Shown one piece after another: positions 12,135 to 25,535 of a stretch of 64,000 nucleotides of DNA. The position numbers were made by a program, and so were the translations under genes. Origin of the DNA: an uncultured Duodenibacillus sp. (lineage in GTDB: Bacteria > Pseudomonadota > Gammaproteobacteria > Burkholderiales > Burkholderiaceae_F); contig CALXQK010000013.1 in assembly GCA_944390745.1 (NCBI GenBank), positions 310,001 to 374,000 on the forward strand, given 5' to 3'. Below the pieces are notes generated by a model. That model did no database searches. It had not been told where the DNA came from and saw only the letters and a program-made list of their open reading frames with translations. Every line of letters starts with the position of its first letter. Within the stretch, counting starts at the first letter, position 1.

Positions 12135-13364
12135 ATGGTCAAACAGATCCATTGCCGCATCAACGATCTTCTCTTCTGCGAACTTCAGGAATACGCCAAC
12201 GAGCACTCCCTGTCCATTTCTGAATGTGTGAACTCTGCGGTCGCGCGCATGGTTGGAAAAAACAAGGCGGAGCGCTCCCCTGAGCAACATGCCTACTCGT
12301 TCATTGACCTCTTTGCCGGCATCGGCGGCATGAGGCTCGCCTTTGACTCAACCGGTTCACATTGCGTCTACACCAACGAGTGGAACAAGTTTTGCCAACA
12401 GACCTATTTCACCAACTTCGGCGACCTTCCCGACGGCGACATCACCAAGGTTGACGTCTCAAACATCCCTGACCACGACATTCTGGTCGCGGGCTTCCCG
12501 TGCCAGCCCTTCTCCATCGCAGGCGTCTCCAAGAAAAGAAGCCTCGGACGGGCCACCGGCTTCGGGGACAAGACGCAGGGAACGCTCTTTTTTGATGTCT
12601 GCCGGATCATCAAGGGAAAACGGCCCAAGGCGTTCATGCTGGAAAACGTCAAGAATCTCCAGAGCCACGACAAGGGCCGTACGTTCAGGGTGATCATGGA
12701 ATCGCTCGAGGAACTCGGGTATGCCGTTTCCTGGAAGGTAATCGATGGCCAGCTGTATGTGCCGCAGCACCGCGAGCGCATCCTCATTGTTGGCTTCGAC
12801 AAGGCCCGGTACGGCGATGTCGACTTTGACTTTGCGCTCAGGCCTCCCAAGGAAAAGCCTCTTCTGGGTTCGATCCTTGAAAAAAGAGTTGATCCCAAGT
12901 ACACGCTTACAGACGGACTCTGGACCTACCTGCAGGGGTACGCTGAAAAGCATCGCAACGCCGGGAACGGGTTTGGCTTTGGGCTGGCCCAGAGAGACGG
13001 CGTCACCCGCACCCTCAGTGCCCGCTACTACAAGGACGGCTCGGAAATCCTGATTCCGCAGAGAGGCAGGAACCCCCGCAGGCTCACACCGAGGGAGTGC
13101 GCGCGTCTTCAGGGCTTCCCAGACAGCTTCCTGATTCCAGTGTCAAACACCCAAGCTTACAAGCAGTTCGGCAATTCTGTGGTGGTGCCGCTTATGGCCG
13201 ATGTCGCACGCCTGATTGTCGAAAAGCTCAGGGAGCTGGATGCCGGTGTCGCCGCCGGCAAGCCCCGTCGTACCAGACCCGGCTCCATGCAGGATCTATT
13301 TGACGGCTTTGAAGTTCAAGCGGGCGCCCCGGAGCAAGGGATCTCCCTCGGAGCGACAAGATGA
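12135..13364 (+). CDS. DNA cytosine-5 methyltransferase, EcoRII/Dcm type, with RHH-like N-terminus
   Basis: C5-cytosine methyltransferase of 409 residues. Residues 54-70 hold motif I ([15 protein letters not shown]), Cys123 in FPCQPFS is the catalytic motif IV, ENV is at 170-172 and [10 protein letters not shown] is motif VIII. The late region with [13 protein letters not shown] and [14 protein letters not shown] closely resembles Dcm/M.EcoRII, so methylation within CCWGG is likely but unproven; related enzymes use CCNGG. Residues 4-40 ([20 protein letters not shown] followed by [12 protein letters not shown]) look like a ribbon-helix-helix DNA-binding unit. The stop overlaps the endonuclease ATG by four bases. 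Codon use is less GC-rich than neighbouring operons. Confidence 0.9.
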
Positions 13365-14590
13365 CAGCAATCAAGACGTCCGATGCACCTGCGCCCTCCG
13401 CCCCGGCAAGCGACGAGGCATCCTCTGCGGCTGAGGCGACGCGCACTGTCCAGGCTGGGGAGCTGTCCTTCTGCAAATTTCTTTCGTCCAACGATACCGG
13501 CGAGACGGGAGCCCATCAGGCCGGCATCTACATTCCCAAGAGCGCAAGCTCGATTCTCTTTCACGAGCCTGGCGTCAAGGGCGAGAACAAGAAGGGAAGG
13601 GCAAGAATCCACTGGCCGGACGGCACCTGCACGGAGTCGTCTTTCACCTACTACGGAAAGGGAACGCGCGATGAATACCGCATCACGTGCTTTGGCAGGG
13701 GCTTTGAATATTTGCGCCCCAGGTACACCGGGGCCCTTTTCGTTCTGTGCCGGATGGACGCCGAAGACTACAAGGCGTTCATCTTCAACACGGAAGATGA
13801 GATCAACGGCTTCCTTGACAACTTCGGCCTGAGCCCAGCCGACACCAATGTTCTTATTGGAGCCCAGCCGGCGGGAAATTTCAGAGAGATTGAGGAAATC
13901 CAAAGATTCATCACTACGCTCAAGGTGAACTTTCCGGATTCCCGCACAATGTCGGCAACGGCAAGGGACATTGAGGAAAGGGTGTGGGATCATGCCGACG
14001 ATGCCATCCTGCGCCCCGACAAAAAGCTTGTAGAGTGGATTCGCGTTGAGTACGCGCTTTTCAAGGCAATCGAGATTTTCCGCTACCAGCCCATGATCGA
14101 GGAGGGCTTCAGGGACATTGACGAGTTTCTGGCGAAGGCGCTCAAGATTCTCAACAGCCGCAAGTCACGGGCGGGAAAAAGCCTTGAGCACCACTTGACT
14201 GAGCTCTTTACCCGCAATCGTCTGCTCTTTGAGACGCAGGTGCGGACAGAGGGGCGAAAGACGGTCGACTTCCTCTTTCCCTCGGCCGCCGCCTATCATG
14301 ATGAAGACTACAGCTCCGCTCATCTTGTGTCGCTTGCCGCGAAGACAACCTGCAAGGATCGCTGGCGTCAGATTCTCAATGAGGCTGACAGACTGCGGGA
14401 CGGCAAGAAATATCTGTGCACGCTTCAGCGCGGGATCTCATCGGAGCAGCTCGGGGAAATGACGAGGGAGGGCGTCGTCCTCGTCGTGCCCAAGCCCTAC
14501 ATCAAGGAATATCCCGCCGCCTTCAGGGCCGACATCTGGACGGTCAAAAAGTTCATCGACTTCATCAGGTCCAAGAATCACGTCAAGTGA
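13361..14590 (+). CDS. EcoRII-type restriction endonuclease (type IIE)
   Basis: Restriction enzyme of 409 residues that should cut the site protected by the upstream methyltransferase, probably CCWGG. The N-terminal effector domain is recognisable from [18 protein letters not shown]. The C-terminal catalytic domain has [16 protein letters not shown], then Tyr312 (AYHD), Lys328, Lys332 and Arg334 in [16 protein letters not shown]. These align with EcoRII Tyr308, Lys324, Lys328 and Arg330 at a constant offset of four. The start overlaps the methyltransferase stop (ATGA) and has GGAG upstream. The last 13 bases overlap the end of vsr on the other strand. An intact, probably active enzyme. Confidence 0.93.
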
Positions 14591-15060
14591 TGGCCATGGG
14601 CGCCGCTCTCAAGATCGTTGCGACCGATCTCGGCGCGCGGAACGTCCTGCTCCCTGAGAAAACGGCAGACCCGGGAGGAAAGATCTGCGGAAAACCGTTT
14701 CAGGCAGGCGCACTCCCAGATGACAAGAACGCGCCATCCCGCCGAAAGAAGCGCCCTGATGTTGTCCTCGTCACGCCTCTTGTTTCCTGCGAGCTTTCTC
14801 TCCCAGAAGTCCGGTCTGGTTGCGGGACGAGCTGCCAGGCGACAGCCTTCATGGTGGTGCCAGAAGCACCCGTTGACAAAGATGACAGCGTGGTATTTCG
14901 GAAGAACAATATCGGGCTTTCCCGGAAGCCTTCCATCATGCAGCCGGTAGCGAAATCCAGCGGCAAAGATCAGCTTGCGCACGAAGAGCTCGGGCCGTGT
15001 GTCGCCGCTTCTGATGTGCGACATCACAACCGAGCGCTTGGCAGGGGTAAAGACGTCCAC
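14578..15060 (-). CDS. vsr: Very short patch repair (Vsr) endonuclease
   Basis: Nicks beside T:G mismatches that arise when 5-methylcytosine deaminates, starting repair to C:G. The GTG at 15058-15060, with AAGGAGAG upstream, gives 160 residues beginning with (M)DVFTPAKRS, as Vsr proteins do; an upstream ATG would create an atypical extension overlapping the AIPR gene. PGKPDIVLP provides the catalytic Asp50. VNGCFWHHHEGC provides the active-site Trp/His and zinc ligands. It is the last gene of the leftward island operon and converges on the EcoRII-type gene, so it could repair damage from either methyltransferase. Confidence 0.93.
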   Translation of the reverse strand: MDVFTPAKRSVVMSHIRSGDTRPELFVRKLIFAAGFRYRLHDGRLPGKPDIVLPKYHAVIFVNGCFWHHHEGCRLAARPATRPDFWERKLAGNKRRDEDNIRALLSAGWRVLVIWECACLKRFSADLSSRVCRFLREQDVPRAEIGRNDLESGAHGHHLT

Positions 15061-15091
15061 TCTGTCACTCTCTCCTTGCACCACGCTCCAG

Positions 15092-17038
15092 CTACAGGAC
15101 AGCCTCTGCTGCACCAGGGGAGCCTGAGGCTTCCTCATCCGTTCCTTCAGCCGGGAGCTCGGCGATGCCGGCGCTTTTGGATTCCAGAATGCCGTTGCTG
15201 AAGCCGTTCTGGACGACCCTCAGACACTCGGCCTGACGGCCGTACATGTGAATCATGGCTCCGCCCATGTTGTCGCGGATGATCCTGTCCACATGCCCGG
15301 CCATGCTCACGAGCAGGCGCAGGAATGCTTCGGTGGGCTTCTGCATCTGCCAGATTTTCCCCCATTGAACCCGCGTGCCCATCTTCTCATGAAGCATGGC
15401 CAGGGTATAGAGCATCGTAATTCTCGGATTCTTCAGCCCTTTCTTCTTCAGACTCTTTTCAAGCGCATCAAACAAGATCCAGCGGGCAACAAGCTCCTGC
15501 ACCGTCTTCGGGTCAAGCGTCATCTTGTGCTGCTCATAAAGCTCATCAATTACCCCGCAGAAGATCCCGAAGGCAACCTCCCTGCCCTTTGCGCAGTCCT
15601 GTGCCCTGCCTTCACAGGCAAGGTACGCCATGGCGAACTGCGTTTTATCAAACTTCTTGCTCTCCGGATATCTGGCCTTGAAGTCGGCAAGCTCCCTTCT
15701 ATTCTTGCACTTGCTCTTTTCAGCCTCGTACAGTCCCCTGGCATTCTCATAGAACCAGCCGCTGATCCCGTCAGGCGTCCGCATGGAGTTGACCTTTGAG
15801 GAGAACTCCACCTGAAACGGACTGTTTGCCTCCAGATCAGAGCGTCTCACTGCGTTCTGTGAGTTGGCGGCCTCAGAAATGCGCACTCTGAACTCGGCAC
15901 GCTCCTTCTCGGTTGCACCCTCACGAGAAATGACAACCTTCATCGGAACGTACATTTTCTTGAGATTTGCCTCAAGTCTATTGCGGGCCTCGGGATCCTT
16001 TCGATTTCTTCTGGCCCTCAGCCACGCATGATATATGGAGGCCGTTGTCTGCCCTCCATTGATAATTTGAATGCCATACAGCTTCCACAGCCTCCCGTCA
16101 TGGAAGTCAGCGGCTCGACAGGAGAGGACGAGTCCGTTGTTATATGCAAGAAACCGGGAGGGCTCATTGACAATCGTTTCGTAAATACCCTTGTTAACGT
16201 TAACCTTTTCTCCAAGATAGGCACGCACATTTGCTCGAACCAGAGCCGGCCCATGCAGTGAATAGAGTGTAGAAAGCGTTTCCCCGGGAATCACAGACAA
16301 AATGCAGTCATAGTCCTGCTCTGCATTTGAACCGAGCTTGATTCCCTGCAGCCCCCCAATGTTTTCAAAGGACTGGTCCGCGTCCACCCCGCTTGAAAAG
16401 AGGTCGGATATGTAAACCAGGTCCACAAGCTGGGCGCTCCACTCTTCGTCTCCCTGGGCTCTCCTGTCATTTCTTTCGCCTCCGGGGAAAACTCCGTTTG
16501 TCAGAAGCCACAGACGCACGCTGGAGATCTTTCCATCATCGTGCAGTCTCTTGATCTGCTGGGCGTACTTGTAGGCAGGATGAGAAACATTCATTCTGGC
16601 CTGCAGTTTTCCAGAACATGCATAGACATAAAAATGCAGCAACTGCCTGTGCATCCTGGAAAAGTCCTCCTGGGTAATCTCTCTGAACCCGTTGGTCTTT
16701 TCATAATCTGAAAGAAAAAGATGCAGGTCAAAGCACCCCTCCCCTCCCGGAGTGCGCAGAATTGCAGATCCCCAGCAACTGATCTGCGCATTTCCAATCT
16801 TCCCGCTGTAGCGGTGCTCACAAAAATACTCATCTGGCTTCGGCACCAGCGGAAGCTGCACTATGGATTGGTCAGAAAGCCAGCCGGCGACCGTTTGAGC
16901 AAAAATGCTGTCATCATAGAGGCACTCATCCTCCTGCTCGCTGTCATGGGCATCACCGATCGCATCGTCAATCTTTTTTCGAGCCTCGGCAAGGGCCCCC
17001 ATCTTCGTGTGCAGAAGTTCATCAAATTTCTCAGACAT
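15092..17038 (-). CDS. AIPR family (abortive infection phage resistance) protein
   Basis: Protein of 648 residues. The AIPR core is seen at residues 297-337: FLAYNNGLVLSCRA, then YGIQIINGGQTTASIYHAW, the Asn/Gly-rich family signature. The family is named for phage abortive-infection proteins and occurs in restriction-type neighbourhoods; its biochemical activity is not settled. A GAGGA ribosome site precedes the ATG. It lies 27 bases after the PD-(D/E)XK gene and 31 bases before vsr, within one leftward operon. Function in this system (effector or nuclease partner) is inferred only from neighbours. Confidence 0.88.
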   Translation of the reverse strand: MSEKFDELLHTKMGALAEARKKIDDAIGDAHDSEQEDECLYDDSIFAQTVAGWLSDQSIVQLPLVPKPDEYFCEHRYSGKIGNAQISCWGSAILRTPGGEGCFDLHLFLSDYEKTNGFREITQEDFSRMHRQLLHFYVYACSGKLQARMNVSHPAYKYAQQIKRLHDDGKISSVRLWLLTNGVFPGGERNDRRAQGDEEWSAQLVDLVYISDLFSSGVDADQSFENIGGLQGIKLGSNAEQDYDCILSVIPGETLSTLYSLHGPALVRANVRAYLGEKVNVNKGIYETIVNEPSRFLAYNNGLVLSCRAADFHDGRLWKLYGIQIINGGQTTASIYHAWLRARRNRKDPEARNRLEANLKKMYVPMKVVISREGATEKERAEFRVRISEAANSQNAVRRSDLEANSPFQVEFSSKVNSMRTPDGISGWFYENARGLYEAEKSKCKNRRELADFKARYPESKKFDKTQFAMAYLACEGRAQDCAKGREVAFGIFCGVIDELYEQHKMTLDPKTVQELVARWILFDALEKSLKKKGLKNPRITMLYTLAMLHEKMGTRVQWGKIWQMQKPTEAFLRLLVSMAGHVDRIIRDNMGGAMIHMYGRQAECLRVVQNGFSNGILESKSAGIAELPAEGTDEEASGSPGAAEAVL

Positions 17039-17065: not shown

Positions 17066-18037
17066 TTATTCCTTCAGGTACTGTTCAAGATCCGCCTGTT
17101 TGTAATTCTCGTCAGAGCCTCCCTGCTCATCAGTAATCTGAATCTCATAGCGGGCCGAGACGACACCCCGGATTGACCCCGGAACAATTCTGGGAAGCGA
17201 TTCTGCAAAGTAGGATGTCATATATTCTTCAGAAAATCTTCTAAGCTCTCTGCCGGGATTTTCGCTTCTATAGCCCAGAGAGAGCACCAGGGAGTCAAAG
17301 TCAAGCTGCAGGGTTCTGCTCTTCAAAAGCTCCCTCACGCTCAGCCGTAGCTCCTCGAGGTTCATCCCCGACTCCTCCTCGCGTAGCTTGACCACGACAA
17401 GGAGCAGCCGGTCGCAATCGGACGTATCGAGCTGCACAATCGAATCAATCTTCACTCTCAGCGGATTGTCGCCAAGAGTGGTCTTCACCTCAATGGCGCG
17501 TCCATTGCTGAGCGAAAAATCATGAGCTCCATGGAGAGGCCCGTTCCAGATCCCCCTGAGAGTCTCAAGCGGCCCCGCCGACTCCAAAATCCTCCGCAAC
17601 ACCAGAAGCTCGCCATACAACCCAAGCTCGGACTGGCTGCTCAGCCCCCTGCTGGTTGTCTTCATGAACGCCTGCCAGGCCGAAATGCGCTCAACCACGG
17701 CCTGCGCGCAGTCCATCTGAGAGAGGCCTTCGCAACTCTGGGCAAGCTGGAACAGATCCCCGGAGAAAGTGTAAAAAAGTCCTTCGTCTTCCTTTTGCAA
17801 CAAGTACTTAATTGTCAAGGTGGTGGATCCGTCCTGAATGGCCAAATCCACCTCAAAGCCTGTGCTCTCCGACAACTTGATGTTCAGCTGGTCATGAAAC
17901 ACGAAGACGATCGATGAGGCCCCATGAGAATCCCTTAGGAAAACAATCCTGCAGGGAGAACTGCACATGTCCACCTCGCTTCCCGGGGTTATTGCATTCC
18001 ATACGGCCGCTGCAGACTTATCATTCAACTCAATCAT
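17066..18037 (-). CDS. PD-(D/E)XK motif protein (DUF4420-like), probable nuclease subunit
   Basis: Protein of 323 residues. The nuclease-like motif is GAHDFSLSNGRAIEVKTT, giving Asp173, Glu183 and Lys185 of a PD-(D/E)XK core. Upstream, SQSELGLYGELLVLRRIL resembles the helix carrying an early acidic residue in this fold. The ATG overlaps the TGA of the Z1 gene (ATGA) and is preceded by GGAGG, so the two are translationally coupled. In known neighbourhoods it accompanies Z1, paraMORC and AIPR proteins and is predicted to be the cutting subunit; no substrate is known. Confidence 0.85.
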   Translation of the reverse strand: MIELNDKSAAAVWNAITPGSEVDMCSSPCRIVFLRDSHGASSIVFVFHDQLNIKLSESTGFEVDLAIQDGSTTLTIKYLLQKEDEGLFYTFSGDLFQLAQSCEGLSQMDCAQAVVERISAWQAFMKTTSRGLSSQSELGLYGELLVLRRILESAGPLETLRGIWNGPLHGAHDFSLSNGRAIEVKTTLGDNPLRVKIDSIVQLDTSDCDRLLLVVVKLREEESGMNLEELRLSVRELLKSRTLQLDFDSLVLSLGYRSENPGRELRRFSEEYMTSYFAESLPRIVPGSIRGVVSARYEIQITDEQGGSDENYKQADLEQYLKE

Positions 18038-21000
18038 TCGTCATCCTCCATCACCGGCTCAACGTAGTCATCATCAGGATCTTCATTCCTGATGCTGGTG
18101 TTGAATCTGGCCATGTTTGTTTGGGAGTTTCTTCTGCTTCTGGGCAGCCAGAGGTAATAAGAAACCACAGGAACCGCGGCGTTTATTTCCTTGCGGGCAC
18201 TGCGAAAATATTGATCATTGCTCAAATCTTTCGCAGGGATTTCCATCAGGTACAAGATCAGATACCCCTCCTCCGGACGAAGCTGCCCTGCCGCCTTGCG
18301 CACCGCCTTGAAAAGTTCTCCCCTTCCCGTGCCCGCATTCTCAACTGCAACCTTCATGACGTCAGCCGGCACCCCCACAAACTCGTGCGACCCCGTCTTC
18401 AACACCCGAAGCACACCGGAGCTTGGGTCGGTTTTTGGTATGCCCATTGCACGCTGTACAAATCTGACATTGAAAACTTTCTCTTCAGAGGAATATCTTC
18501 CAGGAATGAAGACATTCCATCTTGTCAGATCACCATCCTTCAGTTCGTTCTCAATATAGGAAATGACCCCCTTCTTATATTGGTCACCCTCATTGTCATG
18601 ACTCCTGTACCCCCGGACAAAGTTCAAGACTGTCTCAGCAGGCACATCACGCCAGACTCTTCCGGAGGCGTTTCGTACATCCTCTCGCGTGCTCGCCTCC
18701 TTTTCCTCCCCCTGATCCGGATAGTCAGCAGAGGCATAGGCCAGGCGACCACAACCGTGGGCTGTCAAGTCAGAATACAGGTCACTTGCCAGAGACCAGT
18801 TCTCAACCAAGCCCTCAGTCGTCAAATCCAGATTTCTGCACTCAAGTGTCTCTCCGTTGAAGCTGATGAATCCTTCGCTTGAGGCGCCCAGCTTGTTTCG
18901 GGCCGTTACAAGAAGCCCCGGGTGCTGCAGGATCTTCAACCTGACCTTGTCCGGATCCTGATTCAGATAGGCCATCCGGTCTATCTGGTACGCAAGATCC
19001 AGGCATGCCTCGCTGATCGCCCTGAACCGGTCAAAGATCTTGGTGGTCGTGCAAATCCTGCACAGGTCGATATACCCCTCCCGATAGCCGAACCATCGCC
19101 CCATCTGCAGAAGAGTATCGTACATCGTTGATGAACGAAGGAAAAAACTGACGCAAAGCCCTGGAAGGGTCAGGCCTCGGGAAAGTTTGTTTCCTCCAAT
19201 AAAAATCCGGGCTTGCACAAATTTTCTTCCTGGCGAGCCTGGCGACCTGCACAGGATTTCTTTTGCCTGAAGCTCCCCATTGACAACGACGATTGAAAGA
19301 TCCTCAATGACCTCATGAAGCAGCGGTCTCAAATCCTCGAAGGTCTCGGGAAGCCCCCACTCTGGATAAAGCGGATGGTAGTCCCAGTCCTCTGCATCCT
19401 TGCGAATTCTGGCAGTCGTCTGACGCTGATCTTCGAACATCCTTTCAAGATCATTCCAAAGCTTCGCCCGGCTCTGCTCATCCCCAAATTTAACGACATC
19501 TCTGGCTGCGCCCAGAACCAAATCCCTGAATTGGGCTGAGATTGATTTATGGGCCTTGATCCGCGAGCTGAAATGCACCAGCATGCTCGACTTGAGAACA
19601 GGCTGCCGCTCAGGAACATCCTCATCCGGGTTTTCCCTTCTCCAGTTTTCAGGATGGTTTCTACGATCCCTCCATACCCTGATGGCTGTTGAAAGGATGA
19701 ACTGAAGCAAGGCAACCCTGCATTCGTCGGGCAGCTTCTGGCCTCCACCCCCGCGGGAAACCTGGGAGACTCTCTTCTTTCCTTCGCCTGTCAGAATATC
19801 GCTTGACTTGTCGCTCACGGGAATAAACAAATCCAACCCCTCGTCAGATCGATTGTCTCCGAAGAAACTGGCAGGACCAAAATAGTTTGGAGGAGCCGGA
19901 AGCGCCAAAATAAAGTCTCGAGGAAACAAGTCAACCCCAAACTTCGGAGAATCCACTCTGGCGTCAATCAGAACATTGGCAAACGGCGTTGCCGTGTATC
20001 CAACAAATGATGCCTTTGGAAACAGCTCCAGAAGGCGCCGAATACACCCATTGGTCGTTGAAACAATGTCCTCATGGAAAACACCGGTGCGGGAGGGACG
20101 TCCTGTATTGATTGAAGCCTGATCGGCCTCATCATCAATCAAAAGAAGCGGCCAGTCCTTGTACCTGCCGTTCTCGAAATACTTGATCAGCTTGTCAAAA
20201 ACTGACCAGTTCTTCTTGACAACAAAAAGCAGCGGCGCATCTTTTCCGACCCCTGTTTGAAAGCTTCCTTTGAAATCGTCATCGGTGAAGGTCGCACAGC
20301 GCGGAGCCTTCTGCCTGTCATACCCAGGAAGCAACCCGACTCCGCACGGTTCTGAATGACTCAGCTTCACCAATCTTCCATTTTCATTCCTATACAGATA
20401 CTCGTGGTATCCCAGAAACTCCTCGTCAAGACGCTCCTGGGTCTGCCTCCTAAGATCGTTGTGGACTCCTGACAGCACAATGATCATCCTGTACCCGCAG
20501 TCACAAGCCTTTGCAATCAAGGCGGAATAATTGGCGGTCTTCCCGCTCTGAACCTGCCCCAGAACAAGCCCCATCTTTCTGAATTCATTCTCCTCTCCGG
20601 AGAAAAGAATCCTCTTCATGACACGGTTGCTCTGCATGTCAATGCTGTCAACAACGGCTCTGGAAAACTTGCGCTTCAACTGCTCCTTCATGAGATTCCA
20701 GTAATAACCGTCACGAATGGAAAGATCATCATCCTTTGCATCGCCGGGCTTTTCCTCAGCCTTTTCACTCCGAATGTATGGAACCAGCCCAGCAAGAAGC
20801 CTGGCCTTGGCATCCTGGATGCACTGGCACTGCTCCGGTGGAAGATGCCCCTGCATCATCGCGCCCCTGAGAATTTTTCCCTCAGGTGACTCCCATGCAC
20901 TTTCCCAGTTCTTGTCAAGGATCTGACTGGCGGCAACGTAGTTAAGCTCGCCTTTCCCCGGATTGACCTTCCTGTCCTGAATCTCCCCGCAGGAACGATC

Positions 21001-21069
21001 AAAGATTGACTGAAGGAGTCCGCGGGCAAGCGGCCCAACATTTCCGGCATCAAAGTCAAGACTGCTCAT
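18034..21069 (-). CDS. Z1 domain SF2 ATPase/helicase-like protein
   Basis: Large ATPase of 1011 residues from the ATG at 21067-21069, chosen because GGAGG lies six bases upstream; an ATG eight codons earlier lacks such a site. Superfamily II motifs are clear: Walker A GQVQSGKT (171-178), DDEAD (312-316), GYTATPFANV (358-366), GGNKLSRGLTL and later QMGRWFGYR, the arginine-finger motif. The region after the core corresponds to the Z1 domain. It overlaps the paraMORC stop by 14 bases and is coupled to the PD-(D/E)XK gene. Likely the DNA-translocating motor of the predicted restriction complex. Confidence 0.9.
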   Translation of the reverse strand: MSSLDFDAGNVGPLARGLLQSIFDRSCGEIQDRKVNPGKGELNYVAASQILDKNWESAWESPEGKILRGAMMQGHLPPEQCQCIQDAKARLLAGLVPYIRSEKAEEKPGDAKDDDLSIRDGYYWNLMKEQLKRKFSRAVVDSIDMQSNRVMKRILFSGEENEFRKMGLVLGQVQSGKTANYSALIAKACDCGYRMIIVLSGVHNDLRRQTQERLDEEFLGYHEYLYRNENGRLVKLSHSEPCGVGLLPGYDRQKAPRCATFTDDDFKGSFQTGVGKDAPLLFVVKKNWSVFDKLIKYFENGRYKDWPLLLIDDEADQASINTGRPSRTGVFHEDIVSTTNGCIRRLLELFPKASFVGYTATPFANVLIDARVDSPKFGVDLFPRDFILALPAPPNYFGPASFFGDNRSDEGLDLFIPVSDKSSDILTGEGKKRVSQVSRGGGGQKLPDECRVALLQFILSTAIRVWRDRRNHPENWRRENPDEDVPERQPVLKSSMLVHFSSRIKAHKSISAQFRDLVLGAARDVVKFGDEQSRAKLWNDLERMFEDQRQTTARIRKDAEDWDYHPLYPEWGLPETFEDLRPLLHEVIEDLSIVVVNGELQAKEILCRSPGSPGRKFVQARIFIGGNKLSRGLTLPGLCVSFFLRSSTMYDTLLQMGRWFGYREGYIDLCRICTTTKIFDRFRAISEACLDLAYQIDRMAYLNQDPDKVRLKILQHPGLLVTARNKLGASSEGFISFNGETLECRNLDLTTEGLVENWSLASDLYSDLTAHGCGRLAYASADYPDQGEEKEASTREDVRNASGRVWRDVPAETVLNFVRGYRSHDNEGDQYKKGVISYIENELKDGDLTRWNVFIPGRYSSEEKVFNVRFVQRAMGIPKTDPSSGVLRVLKTGSHEFVGVPADVMKVAVENAGTGRGELFKAVRKAAGQLRPEEGYLILYLMEIPAKDLSNDQYFRSARKEINAAVPVVSYYLWLPRSRRNSQTNMARFNTSIRNEDPDDDYVEPVMEDDE

Positions 21070-22471
21070 AACTGCCTCCACAAATTTCTCCAAGGACTCC
21101 GGGCCAGTTGCAGAATGGATCCGTGTCTCTCAGAATTTCCCCAGCTCTTTCACCTCCATATTCCCGGGACATGGTTTCATAGATTGCGGCAATCGCCTTT
21201 CTGAAATCCTCCCCAGACAATATCTGGCATCCTTTCCAGGATGGATGAGAAACAGCAAGTATCTCAAGAAATCCGCGCATAACCTGCGCATCAAGGCCCC
21301 CGCTCTCCAGACGGGAAAACAATGCCTCCATGACCGGGCTTGTGTAGTCCAGCAGGGGCGCACTGCCTCTCGACTTCCGCCAGAGCTTGCTTATCCTCTT
21401 CCGGCGCCCCTCCTTTGCATTTTGTCTGTTGATTGTCTGGTCCGACAACGTTCTTGCCTGCAGAGCATATTTTCTCAGCCACTGCCGCATTTCGGCCGGC
21501 GGACGCGCCCTCGACTTCTTTATATCAACCTGCCACTCCTCGTCACCATCATTCTCGAAGTCCAGACAAATCCGTGCGAGTCGATACTGTTCCTCAACCC
21601 GGAGATCTTTCAGGCCAAGCCATCCGCCGGCCTGCAGGAGTCGCTTCCCCCGATAAACATAGAACCCCTGCAGACATCCATCCTCATCCTGGGACATTGC
21701 TGACGTCATCGGAACCACGTAACACTGAAGCCACGCCTTGACAGTAGATCCCGACTCGGGCCAGAAGACCCGGGGAAAGTCACAGGGCTTGCCCGGATCC
21801 TGACTAAAAAATGGATCTATCGGCTTGATCTTGTCATCTCCAAAGTAGATTTCCAGCCCATCAGCAATGAAGCGGTGAAAGATCAATCCAAGACTCATGC
21901 AAACCTTTTTTCGCAAAGAAGACCAGTCATAATCCTGGGCGTCTTTAGACATGAAGGGAATTCTGTCAATCTTTCTCCAGAGCACCACTGTTCCATGCTC
22001 CCCCTCAATCTGGGCACATGGTGGTATCTCCCTGCTTTTCTGAAGCTTCCATTCCCCTGTTCTGACAATCTCATCCAGATCCCACGAGAAAGAGGATGTC
22101 TGCTGATCCTTCTTTGAAACAACGGTCAAATTCCGGCACTGGGAAAAGCTGGCTGACTTCAGCCCCAGCCCAAACCGGCCAAGATCATTTTCTCTTCTTT
22201 TCTTCAGGGGCGAAATTGACCCCAGCTTCATGGCCGTAATCAAGCATGATTCACTCATGCCCACCCCGTCATCCTTGATCAGGATCGACGCTCCGCTCTG
22301 CTCCGTCTCCCGGTTCATTATTACCCGGATGCTTCTTGCGCCGGCAGATATGCTGTTGTCGATAATGTCTGCTATGGCCGTCTCCACCGTATATCCCATG
22401 CCTCTCAATGACTGAGTCAGGGACTCCGGGTCCGGAGGAAGAATTACATCATGTTCAAGATCTGCAGTCAT
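21056..22471 (-). CDS. GHKL ATPase (paraMORC / MutL-like ATP-binding protein)
   Basis: ATP-binding protein of 471 residues with a Bergerat fold. The N-box is ETAIADIIDNSISAGA (30-45), the G1 box is IKDDGVGMS and the G2 region is RFGLGLKSASFSQCR. This set is typical of Hsp90/MutL/MORC-like ATPases. Prokaryotic paraMORC proteins of this kind were predicted to act in restriction systems with Z1 helicases. The ATG follows AGGTGATCT. It starts seven bases after the ankyrin-like gene and overlaps the Z1 gene. Proposed role: an ATP-driven DNA clamp or loader; inferred from family. Confidence 0.9.
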   Translation of the reverse strand: MTADLEHDVILPPDPESLTQSLRGMGYTVETAIADIIDNSISAGARSIRVIMNRETEQSGASILIKDDGVGMSESCLITAMKLGSISPLKKRRENDLGRFGLGLKSASFSQCRNLTVVSKKDQQTSSFSWDLDEIVRTGEWKLQKSREIPPCAQIEGEHGTVVLWRKIDRIPFMSKDAQDYDWSSLRKKVCMSLGLIFHRFIADGLEIYFGDDKIKPIDPFFSQDPGKPCDFPRVFWPESGSTVKAWLQCYVVPMTSAMSQDEDGCLQGFYVYRGKRLLQAGGWLGLKDLRVEEQYRLARICLDFENDGDEEWQVDIKKSRARPPAEMRQWLRKYALQARTLSDQTINRQNAKEGRRKRISKLWRKSRGSAPLLDYTSPVMEALFSRLESGGLDAQVMRGFLEILAVSHPSWKGCQILSGEDFRKAIAAIYETMSREYGGERAGEILRDTDPFCNWPGVLGEICGGSYEQS

Positions 22472-22478
22472 AGATCAC

Positions 22479-23870
22479 CTACACATTTTTCCGTCCCAGA
22501 CGGGCCAGTTTGTCATCAGCGTATAACTTGAGCGCCCTGTAGAGTTCAAGAGTCCTTCTGTCTGTCAGCTTCTGATAATTCTCCGCCTCGACCCCCTGCA
22601 TCAAGAGGAAATGATCAATAAGAATTCCCGGAAGCGGAAGATCGTATAGATACCCCTTGACACGCACCAGTTGCTCGGCAGACATCGTTGTCATTCGAAT
22701 TTGCACGAGATCCTCACGCTCCGCCTTTCCTGATCCTGAGACAGTCAGAGGCCCGGCGCTGTCATTTGCGGTGTCGTCCAGACTCTCCTCAACACCTCCC
22801 TCCTCCATCTCTTCTTCGTCGTCACCAAGCCCCCAGTCAAGACCTGCCCCCTCCAGAGCAACGCTGTCAACCTCGCTGATTTCATCATCAGATGCGCCCG
22901 GGGAATCTTCTTGAGCTGGCGTCCAGCCCTCCTGCGGCGACGAGGGCGGATCACGGGGAACGGACGCATCCTCCCTCGCCAATTCCGTCTCCCGGTCCCT
23001 GGGAGTCGTGGTTTCTTCATCCTGGCGCTCCGGAAGGGCCCCTGAGCCGGAATACATTGTTTCCAGAATTCTCTCCGGGGCCTCCTCATCCTGTAGTCGA
23101 GAAAGAACGGACTCCAGAAGCCGGGTCTCGTCCATCCTTGCAAAATCCTGAAGTCGCAACCCGTGCCTGCTTGTTGCAGTGCGCCAGTTCAGACCAAGGT
23201 GCACATACTCCAGCAACAGCTCGAAGTTATGGGTCGTCAAGGCAAAGAGAAGCTCATCACTAATCCGCTCCGGATCCTTCCCGATCTCTGTTCCTCTTTT
23301 GTCCTCCCTGTCCTGCGCCAGTCGTCTGAAGGGCTCCCTCGCCTCATGAAAAGAAAACACAGAGGCCCCATGACGCAGCAGCCACCGGAACAGCGTGCGG
23401 TCATTGCGGTGAACAGCTGCATCCAGAGGAGCATTTCCTGCACTAAGACTGTTTCCATCCTTTATGTAGCGCAGAAAAACCTCCGGAATCGACATTGCTG
23501 CCAATTCATTCGCACTCATCCCGGACCTGTATGGATACTCCAAGAGATGCTTGCCCTGTCCCGCGGCATTGACAAGCAGCCAGGATGTGATCATCTCCTT
23601 GTTAGGATTATTTGGAAGCCTTCTCAGCGTCTCCACAAAATCTCTTGAAATCTTCTTGACCGTATCTTCGTCGAGGCAGATATAGGCCGCGACCACCGTC
23701 TGAAAATCGCCTTCAGTCGCGGCCGTCACAAACTGCCTCAATACGTCGCCATAGTCCACCACTTTAACTGGCCTCACTTTCCTGTTCTTGGAAATCTGCG
23801 GGTTCGTACGATCTTGTCGCCATTGAAGCCAGAACCAGCACATCCCTCCCAGAGCACTGGTATTGCTCAA
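22479..23870 (-). CDS. Unrecognised ankyrin-like protein with acidic linker
   Basis: Protein of up to 463 residues, not matched to a named family. Residues 147-171 (APLDAAVHRNDRTLFRWLLR then HGASV) read as an ankyrin repeat. Weaker repeats sit around 40-60 and 205-235. Residues 275-375 are low-complexity, and 320-370 are very rich in Asp/Glu (for example DDEEEMEEGG). The last 90 residues form a mixed-charge, probably helical domain. The TTG start has no ribosome site; GTG codons at 23777 and 23762 are alternatives. It lies between the methyltransferase and the GHKL ATPase in the same operon. It could be a scaffold, specificity factor or DNA-mimicking regulator; this is not known. Confidence 0.6.
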   Translation of the reverse strand: MSNTSALGGMCWFWLQWRQDRTNPQISKNRKVRPVKVVDYGDVLRQFVTAATEGDFQTVVAAYICLDEDTVKKISRDFVETLRRLPNNPNKEMITSWLLVNAAGQGKHLLEYPYRSGMSANELAAMSIPEVFLRYIKDGNSLSAGNAPLDAAVHRNDRTLFRWLLRHGASVFSFHEAREPFRRLAQDREDKRGTEIGKDPERISDELLFALTTHNFELLLEYVHLGLNWRTATSRHGLRLQDFARMDETRLLESVLSRLQDEEAPERILETMYSGSGALPERQDEETTTPRDRETELAREDASVPRDPPSSPQEGWTPAQEDSPGASDDEISEVDSVALEGAGLDWGLGDDEEEMEEGGVEESLDDTANDSAGPLTVSGSGKAEREDLVQIRMTTMSAEQLVRVKGYLYDLPLPGILIDHFLLMQGVEAENYQKLTDRRTLELYRALKLYADDKLARLGRKNV

Positions 23871-23922: not shown

Positions 23923-25104
23923 CTACAGGAAATCATATGACCCATCAAGAAGGTTGGTTTTTGCCCTGACAATCCCTATGCTCGGGGAGATGCTTTTATA
24001 AGCTTCTCCAGCCATCGTCTTCAACAAGGCAACCAATATGATTCTGGCTCCCTCACAGGGAACCGCCATCCCAATCTGCCTTCGAACGCTTTGTACGCTC
24101 CCATAAAAAACAAAATCATCAGGAAATGTCTGGAGGCGGGCTTTTTCCCTATTGGTCAAGGCTCGGGGCTCATCCCAGTGATACATATATGTTCCGCCCC
24201 CGCCTGATCCTGTCACGGTATATGCAGGCCTCTTCGGATCCAGGCGTCGATATATCTGGGACATTCTGGTTCCCTTGACGTTCAGTTGCAAACGCTTGGG
24301 CAACAACCCCATGCTTTCCGCCTGCCAAATATTCATTCCCGGTCTGATATAGCACAGACGCTCAGCCACAATCGGCCTGATGTTTACCCTCTCCTGGTTT
24401 TTTGCATAAACAGGAATATCGGCAAGCGCCTCCGAGCAAGTCTTCATCCTGTAAGAGGGAGCGGGAACCCTGAATTCCCTCTGCAAATCCCCGCGTATCC
24501 CAACCAATATATATCTGTGCCTTATCTGAGGAATCCCATACTCCTCAAACCTGTACAGATGGGTCGTGATGGTATAACCGTGCTCGCCTGCATTGCACAG
24601 TTCATTAAGGATTTGTTTAAACGCCCTCCCATCGTTTGCAGATCTCAGGCCCGTCACATTTTCAGCGACAAAAAACAGCGGGTTTGCATGAGAAATATAC
24701 TCAACCCCGTATTTGTACAAACCCCCAAACTTTCCGTCGAGCCCCTTTGCCTCTCCAACCCGGGAAAAGTCATTGCAAGGGAAGCCAAACAAAAGTCCGT
24801 CTGCCGGCTCCAGTCCCTTGATGTCAAGCTCCCGCACATCCTTGCAAATGCAGACAGCTCCCGGGCATCTCTTCAGGACATTTCTTCTGTATGTTTCACA
24901 TGCACAGGGGTCATAATCAGTAGCCCAGGTATGCTGAAAGGAAAGCCCTTTTATTCGAGCCTTGTTGACGGCAACGCCGATTCCTCCCGGACCGCAGAAC
25001 ATCTCTGCCACCGTCAGTCTTCTGCCTTGCAATGAGCCATCCGGCCTCGCATCGCGTCCCTCCGGAACATTCCCTTCCCCAATGCTTTCAAATCCACCAG
25101 TCAT
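23923..25104 (-). CDS. DNA cytosine-5 methyltransferase of the paraMORC/Z1 module
   Basis: Second C5-cytosine methyltransferase, 393 residues from the ATG at 25102-25104. Motif I is AEMFCGPGGIGVA (33-45), the catalytic Cys110 lies in GFPCNDFS, motif VI is ENVTGL and motif VIII is QIRHRYILVG. The target-recognition region (IWQAESMGLLPKRLQLNVKG and beyond) is unlike the upstream EcoRII-type enzyme, so it should methylate a different, unknown site. It is the first gene of the leftward island operon and presumably protects host DNA from the following gene products. A longer open frame to 25149 would add 15 residues. Confidence 0.92.
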   Translation of the reverse strand: MTGGFESIGEGNVPEGRDARPDGSLQGRRLTVAEMFCGPGGIGVAVNKARIKGLSFQHTWATDYDPCACETYRRNVLKRCPGAVCICKDVRELDIKGLEPADGLLFGFPCNDFSRVGEAKGLDGKFGGLYKYGVEYISHANPLFFVAENVTGLRSANDGRAFKQILNELCNAGEHGYTITTHLYRFEEYGIPQIRHRYILVGIRGDLQREFRVPAPSYRMKTCSEALADIPVYAKNQERVNIRPIVAERLCYIRPGMNIWQAESMGLLPKRLQLNVKGTRMSQIYRRLDPKRPAYTVTGSGGGGTYMYHWDEPRALTNREKARLQTFPDDFVFYGSVQSVRRQIGMAVPCEGARIILVALLKTMAGEAYKSISPSIGIVRAKTNLLDGSYDFL

Positions 25105-25535
25105 TTTTCTCTTTATTGTTAGATGAAGATTTGTCCAGGCGCAATGCAAGTTTTAAGATCATTCTGAAAAAGAGAATGCAAAGCAATTCCCAGACTCTTC
25201 CCTGTTCTTCTCAGGGACCGGTAAAAGCTGAATTTTAGTTGTCCAGTTGCTACTTCGGTAGGCTTTGATGTTTCGCCGGCTTCCTGGTGTATCTTCCACG
25301 GGCCAATGACAGTCTTGACAGCCGCAAGGCCAGAAAAACCACTCCATTCCACCCTGATTTCACGAAACTTCCTCACAATCAACGTGACCCCCGCTGCTGG
25401 CTCCAGACCAGTCACGCCCGCATCGTGCGATGCAACCTGACCGCCTCCGGTTCAACCAGAGAGACCTTCTCCTGAGAAATCAGCCTCGTTCCAGGTCAAC
25501 GATTGCATCTCGTCCGCTGCCTCCCGGCCATACAC
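25105..25535. other. Leader of the leftward island operon / right island flank
   Basis: No recognised gene. On the minus strand an open frame at 25119-25415 encodes 98 basic residues starting MTGLEPAAGVTLIVRKFREI and ends 14 bases before the methyltransferase ATG. Its position resembles that of small controller proteins, but no helix-turn-helix is evident and it may be non-coding. A weak promoter candidate on the minus strand (TTGCGC, 17 bases, TAACAA) lies just before the methyltransferase. The island's AT-richer composition ends around here. Confidence 0.3.

Follow-up and report, generated by a model that had tools for sequence, protein, structure and literature searches.

An ankyrin-like protein with an acidic linker in the MzaA position of an MZA-related operon from an uncultured Duodenibacillus sp.

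The operon and its slot gene

The stretch of 64,000 nucleotides analysed here (the window; positions 310,001 to 374,000 of contig CALXQK010000013.1, uncultured Duodenibacillus sp.) carries on its minus strand an operon related to the anti-phage MZA system (mzaABCDE). Directly upstream of its GHKL ATPase gene, in the position termed the slot below, lies a gene for a protein with ankyrin-like repeats and an acidic linker, which looks like a version of the MzaA-type subunit without the sigma part. The operon starts with a C-5 cytosine DNA methyltransferase (MTase) gene (23923..25149; PF00145, E 3e-63), whose product is 62.6% identical to the MTase of L199, a sister operon in genome G014 of the same bacterial family. 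The slot gene (open reading frame, ORF, 22479..23870) follows and, as the first-pass annotation had noted, is flanked by the MTase and GHKL genes, with seven bases between its end and the GHKL ORF. Homologues of MzaB, MzaC, MzaD and MzaE are then contiguous and in that order: the MzaB-like GHKL ATPase of paraMORC type (21056..22471; PADLOC MzaB, 258.5 bits), the MzaC homologue (18034..21093; PF10593, E 9e-53; PADLOC MzaC, 332.4 bits), an MzaD-like PD-(D/E)XK protein (DUF4420; 17066..18037; PF14390, E 4e-46; PADLOC MzaD, 82.9 bits) and an MzaE-like AIPR protein (15092..17038; PF10592, E 4e-60; PADLOC MzaE, 184.8 bits). A Vsr endonuclease gene (14578..15138; PF03852, E 5e-34) is the last of the operon. 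Since MzaB to MzaE all miss the NCBIfam equivalog cut-offs (301.7 of 850, 406.6 of 1500, 147.1 of 420 and 274.1 of 1050 bits, respectively), the operon is, judged by these profile scores, MZA-related rather than strictly MZA.

The slot ORF of 463 codons (TTG start) is coding. With a codon-usage score trained on five other genes of the operon, it reached +0.22 in frame, while the remaining frames all scored between -0.40 and -0.08, and after codon 36 the usage is in frame throughout, linker and C-terminal domain included, with the frame intact. Because codons 1-36 are not coding-like (-0.01) and a GTG at 23762 is preceded, nine bases upstream, by GAGG as read from the sequence, the protein probably has 427 amino acids and starts at this GTG (coding sequence 22479-23762).

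Architecture of the slot protein

Profile libraries including Pfam, PADLOC and NCBIfam gave no family match above cut-off for the slot protein, and no sigma-70 family was listed in the scans of these three. Homologues beyond itself were found neither in 150 relatives or 398 genomes of the phylum nor in the plasmids, phages or viral contigs searched; genome contigs, searched by short exact patterns, gave none either, a result that therefore excludes only close relatives.

The ankyrin-like repeats proposed at first pass are nevertheless supported, by sequence matches in the PDB and by a shuffle test, whereas Pfam alone stays below threshold (Ank, E 0.03, 15.1 bits versus a gathering score of 21.1). 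At E <= 10 the PDB search returned 18 sequences, 17 of them named ankyrins or designed ankyrin repeat proteins (DARPins); the 18th, 5lw1, is presumably a DARPin construct. The best match had an E of 6e-7 for the whole sequence, yet no single stretch passed alone; one further match reached E 0.029 and the other 16 were weak (0.14-1.4). In 17 of the 18 the best stretch fell within aa 120-187. The score of the protein against an ankyrin profile built from MzaA was reached by one of 2000 shuffled sequences. The clearest repeats comprise aa 123-184 of the ORF (23319..23504), flanked on either side by helical stretches that are less distinct (about aa 40-260).

The adjacent linker (aa 262-385; 22716..23087) is an acidic low-complexity region with 37 aspartate or glutamate (D/E) residues among 124 (30%) and a net charge of -29. 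Its acidity is thus real, but the description "extremely" acidic, given earlier for the whole of about 100 residues, fits better to the core (aa 318-372; 21 of 55 D/E, 38%, without lysine or arginine). The C-terminal helical domain suggested in the same annotation was recovered as 78 residues predicted to be helical (22482..22715), at low confidence only (predicted local distance difference test score, pLDDT, about 29-42), and a PDB sequence search with aa 387-463 gave no match. Foldseek matches of a single-sequence structure model of the protein (mean pLDDT 42.8) were discarded as meaningless; a second model had no match at E <= 0.001.

Relation to MzaA and competing explanations

The gene for MzaA (NF041931 / PDLC02203), like the slot gene, immediately precedes the GHKL (mzaB-like) gene. 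The N-termini of MzaA proteins were interpreted as ankyrin repeats with acidic stretches after them, and in a Pfam scan of 12 MzaA proteins, two of which (L216 and L218) lie outside our set of 157 loci, all 12 combined an Ank_2 match above cut-off with sigma-70 regions 2 and 4, regions 1.2 and 3 being found in part of them. Judged from these domains, MzaA is an ankyrin-sigma-70 fusion. Among 36 ORFs labelled MzaA, 35 occupy the slot and 34 have the ankyrin part; exceptions are L065, where the ORF begins at a contig end, and L124, where it is a 52-residue piece near a contig end. Literature searches brought up no paper on ankyrin repeats in MzaA, although the original MZA report, reportedly that of Gao et al. 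2020, may describe them. A tryptophan motif in the acidic region of MzaA was sought and was not consistent.

Position and front-end architecture, i.e. N-terminal ankyrin repeats and then a strongly acidic region, are common to the slot protein and MzaA. MzaA, however, continues into sigma-70 regions, whereas the slot protein has no detectable sigma-70 feature, so that simply equating it with an MzaA fails. No MzaA with ankyrin and sigma-70 parts is present upstream of mzaB in the window operon, and a search of the same genome with the MzaA model showed no sign of a split MzaA: of four matches to NF041931, none was over cut-off, and the two sigma-factor-like ones (model positions 241-716 and 429-704) may be RpoD- and RpoH-like; the model also matches in 10 of 14 control genomes. 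The remaining two of the four overlap each other and cover the ankyrin part of the model; they lie on another contig (C16), in what looks like a single ORF of 357 codons (L136/L137).

We hold with moderate confidence that the slot protein works in the place of MzaA; the interpretation given at first pass is borne out in part. Several observations weigh against a closer kinship. The MzaA models of PADLOC and NCBIfam do not match the slot protein, the profile and shuffle tests use an ankyrin profile that was itself built from MzaA, and consensus DARPins match as well, so that the resemblance to ankyrins does not point to MzaA in particular. The slot protein of L199 shares the position, the absence of a sigma domain, a helical-looking N-terminal half and a long low-complexity linker, but it aligns with the window protein no better than shuffled sequences do (the local score is reached by 1346 of 2000 shuffles, the global one by 233 of 1000); the pair has a BLAST E of 0.24, and the window protein was not recovered at E 0.01 when genomes were searched with the L199 protein. 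Acidity is lacking in the L199 linker (14% D/E and 41% Pro/Gly/Ser/Thr in the C-terminal 164 residues). The ankyrin evidence for the L199 protein is weak (score reached by 44 of 2000 shuffles; P 0.12 against the ankyrin profile from MzaA), there is no Pfam match, and five of its six PDB matches are cyanate hydratases, which leaves the L199 protein only possibly ankyrin-like on sequence grounds. Lastly, a concatenated tree places the window operon and L199 outside the MzaA clade (31 MzaA among 36 members) and thus does not support descent from a sigma-bearing MzaA. For these reasons, the misalignment, the weak L199 evidence, the unspecific similarity and the tree, common descent of the slot protein and MzaA is not shown.

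The tree position and the dissimilarity to the L199 protein would suit an independent recruitment, in which an unrelated ankyrin-repeat protein with a function different from that of MzaA was captured upstream of the GHKL gene. The slot is indeed variable: in other operons it holds an MTase, Vsr, proteins with a NO VEIN C-terminal (NOV_C) domain, or others. NOV_C proteins were assigned in L051 (annotated DUF3883), L064 and L068 (which cluster with L051) and L156 (below cut-off). However, a search of the 157 loci (13,907 ORFs) with the ankyrin profile gave 35 matches, 34 of which are MzaA in the slot (being made from MzaA, the profile may miss other ankyrins), so that an ankyrin protein here would be an odd coincidence, and the acidic linker is shared with MzaA, too. 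We therefore regard such a capture as a possible but rather unlikely origin. Decay of an MzaA into a functionless remnant after loss of its sigma-70 part would explain position, front end and missing sigma part alike; it is very improbable given the intact frame with in-frame codon usage in all parts after codon 36, the tight packing against the next gene, a sigma-less protein in L199 as well, and the position of this pair outside the MzaA clade.

With regard to function, the acidic region might act as a DNA mimic or anti-nuclease, in line with its charge, a core devoid of basic residues and the acidity of MzaA itself. We consider this improbable, as low-complexity acid runs are common tethers and the C-terminal part of the L199 protein lacks the acidity. 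Similarly improbable is the proposal that the ankyrin module, rather than the sigma factor, is the conserved sensor of MZA-type systems and the part after the linker an exchangeable bait, the sigma factor being a decoy rather than a transcription regulator. The full sigma-70 of MzaA would then be bound by phage proteins that attack host transcription, and the different small domain of the slot protein would bait another phage factor.

Why an anti-phage operon should contain a sigma factor is, to our knowledge, unexplained. The question now becomes testable with MzaA as an ankyrin-sigma-70 fusion, a related operon that keeps an ankyrin protein there without sigma-70, and the sister operon with a sigma-less, only possibly ankyrin-like protein at the same place. 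If a sigma-less operon still defends, the subunit does not need sigma activity and has the ankyrin module as its core.

Related operons and neighbouring genes

The operon also resembles the paraMORC restriction-modification operons, in which a GHKL ATPase occurs with a helicase, a restriction-fold nuclease, a cytosine methylase, Vsr and AIPR (PMC2292703); the word "ankyrin" is absent from the main text of that paper (Iyer et al. 2008). In an MZA-like locus of Prochlorococcus (L117:2692-6285, plus strand), the slot holds a 1197-aa protein that by eye looks nuclease-helicase-like.

The L199 slot protein had no homologues beyond itself in the 150 relatives (window genome included) and none in plasmids. 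Within L199:10020-11219 (minus strand), a P-x-SPFG motif occurs by eye three times in the linker of this protein and may be a short, repeated motif for binding. A 52-codon frame (L199:9898-10056, minus strand) is situated between the stop of the slot gene and the start of the GHKL gene; its ATG overlaps the end of the slot gene, and it runs right up to the GHKL ATG. This frame could represent either a small overlapping gene or a frame break, and its similarity to the C-terminal 80 aa of the window protein is not significant (771 of 2000 shuffles). Two further genes precede the L199 slot gene (L199:11226-13699, minus strand), one for a 552-aa protein that matches BpuJI_N below threshold, the other for an HNH protein whose match to restriction endonucleases of phosphorothioated DNA is also below threshold. 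In L110, a gene before GHKL has an N-terminal part that looks similar by eye.

In the window, genes for a Dcm-like cytosine MTase and an EcoRII-type restriction endonuclease (12135-14590, plus strand) converge on the MZA-type operon and lie with it in one low-G+C stretch. The MZA-type operon of Neorhizobium (L049) is likewise adjoined by a type II restriction endonuclease, Vsr and dcm.
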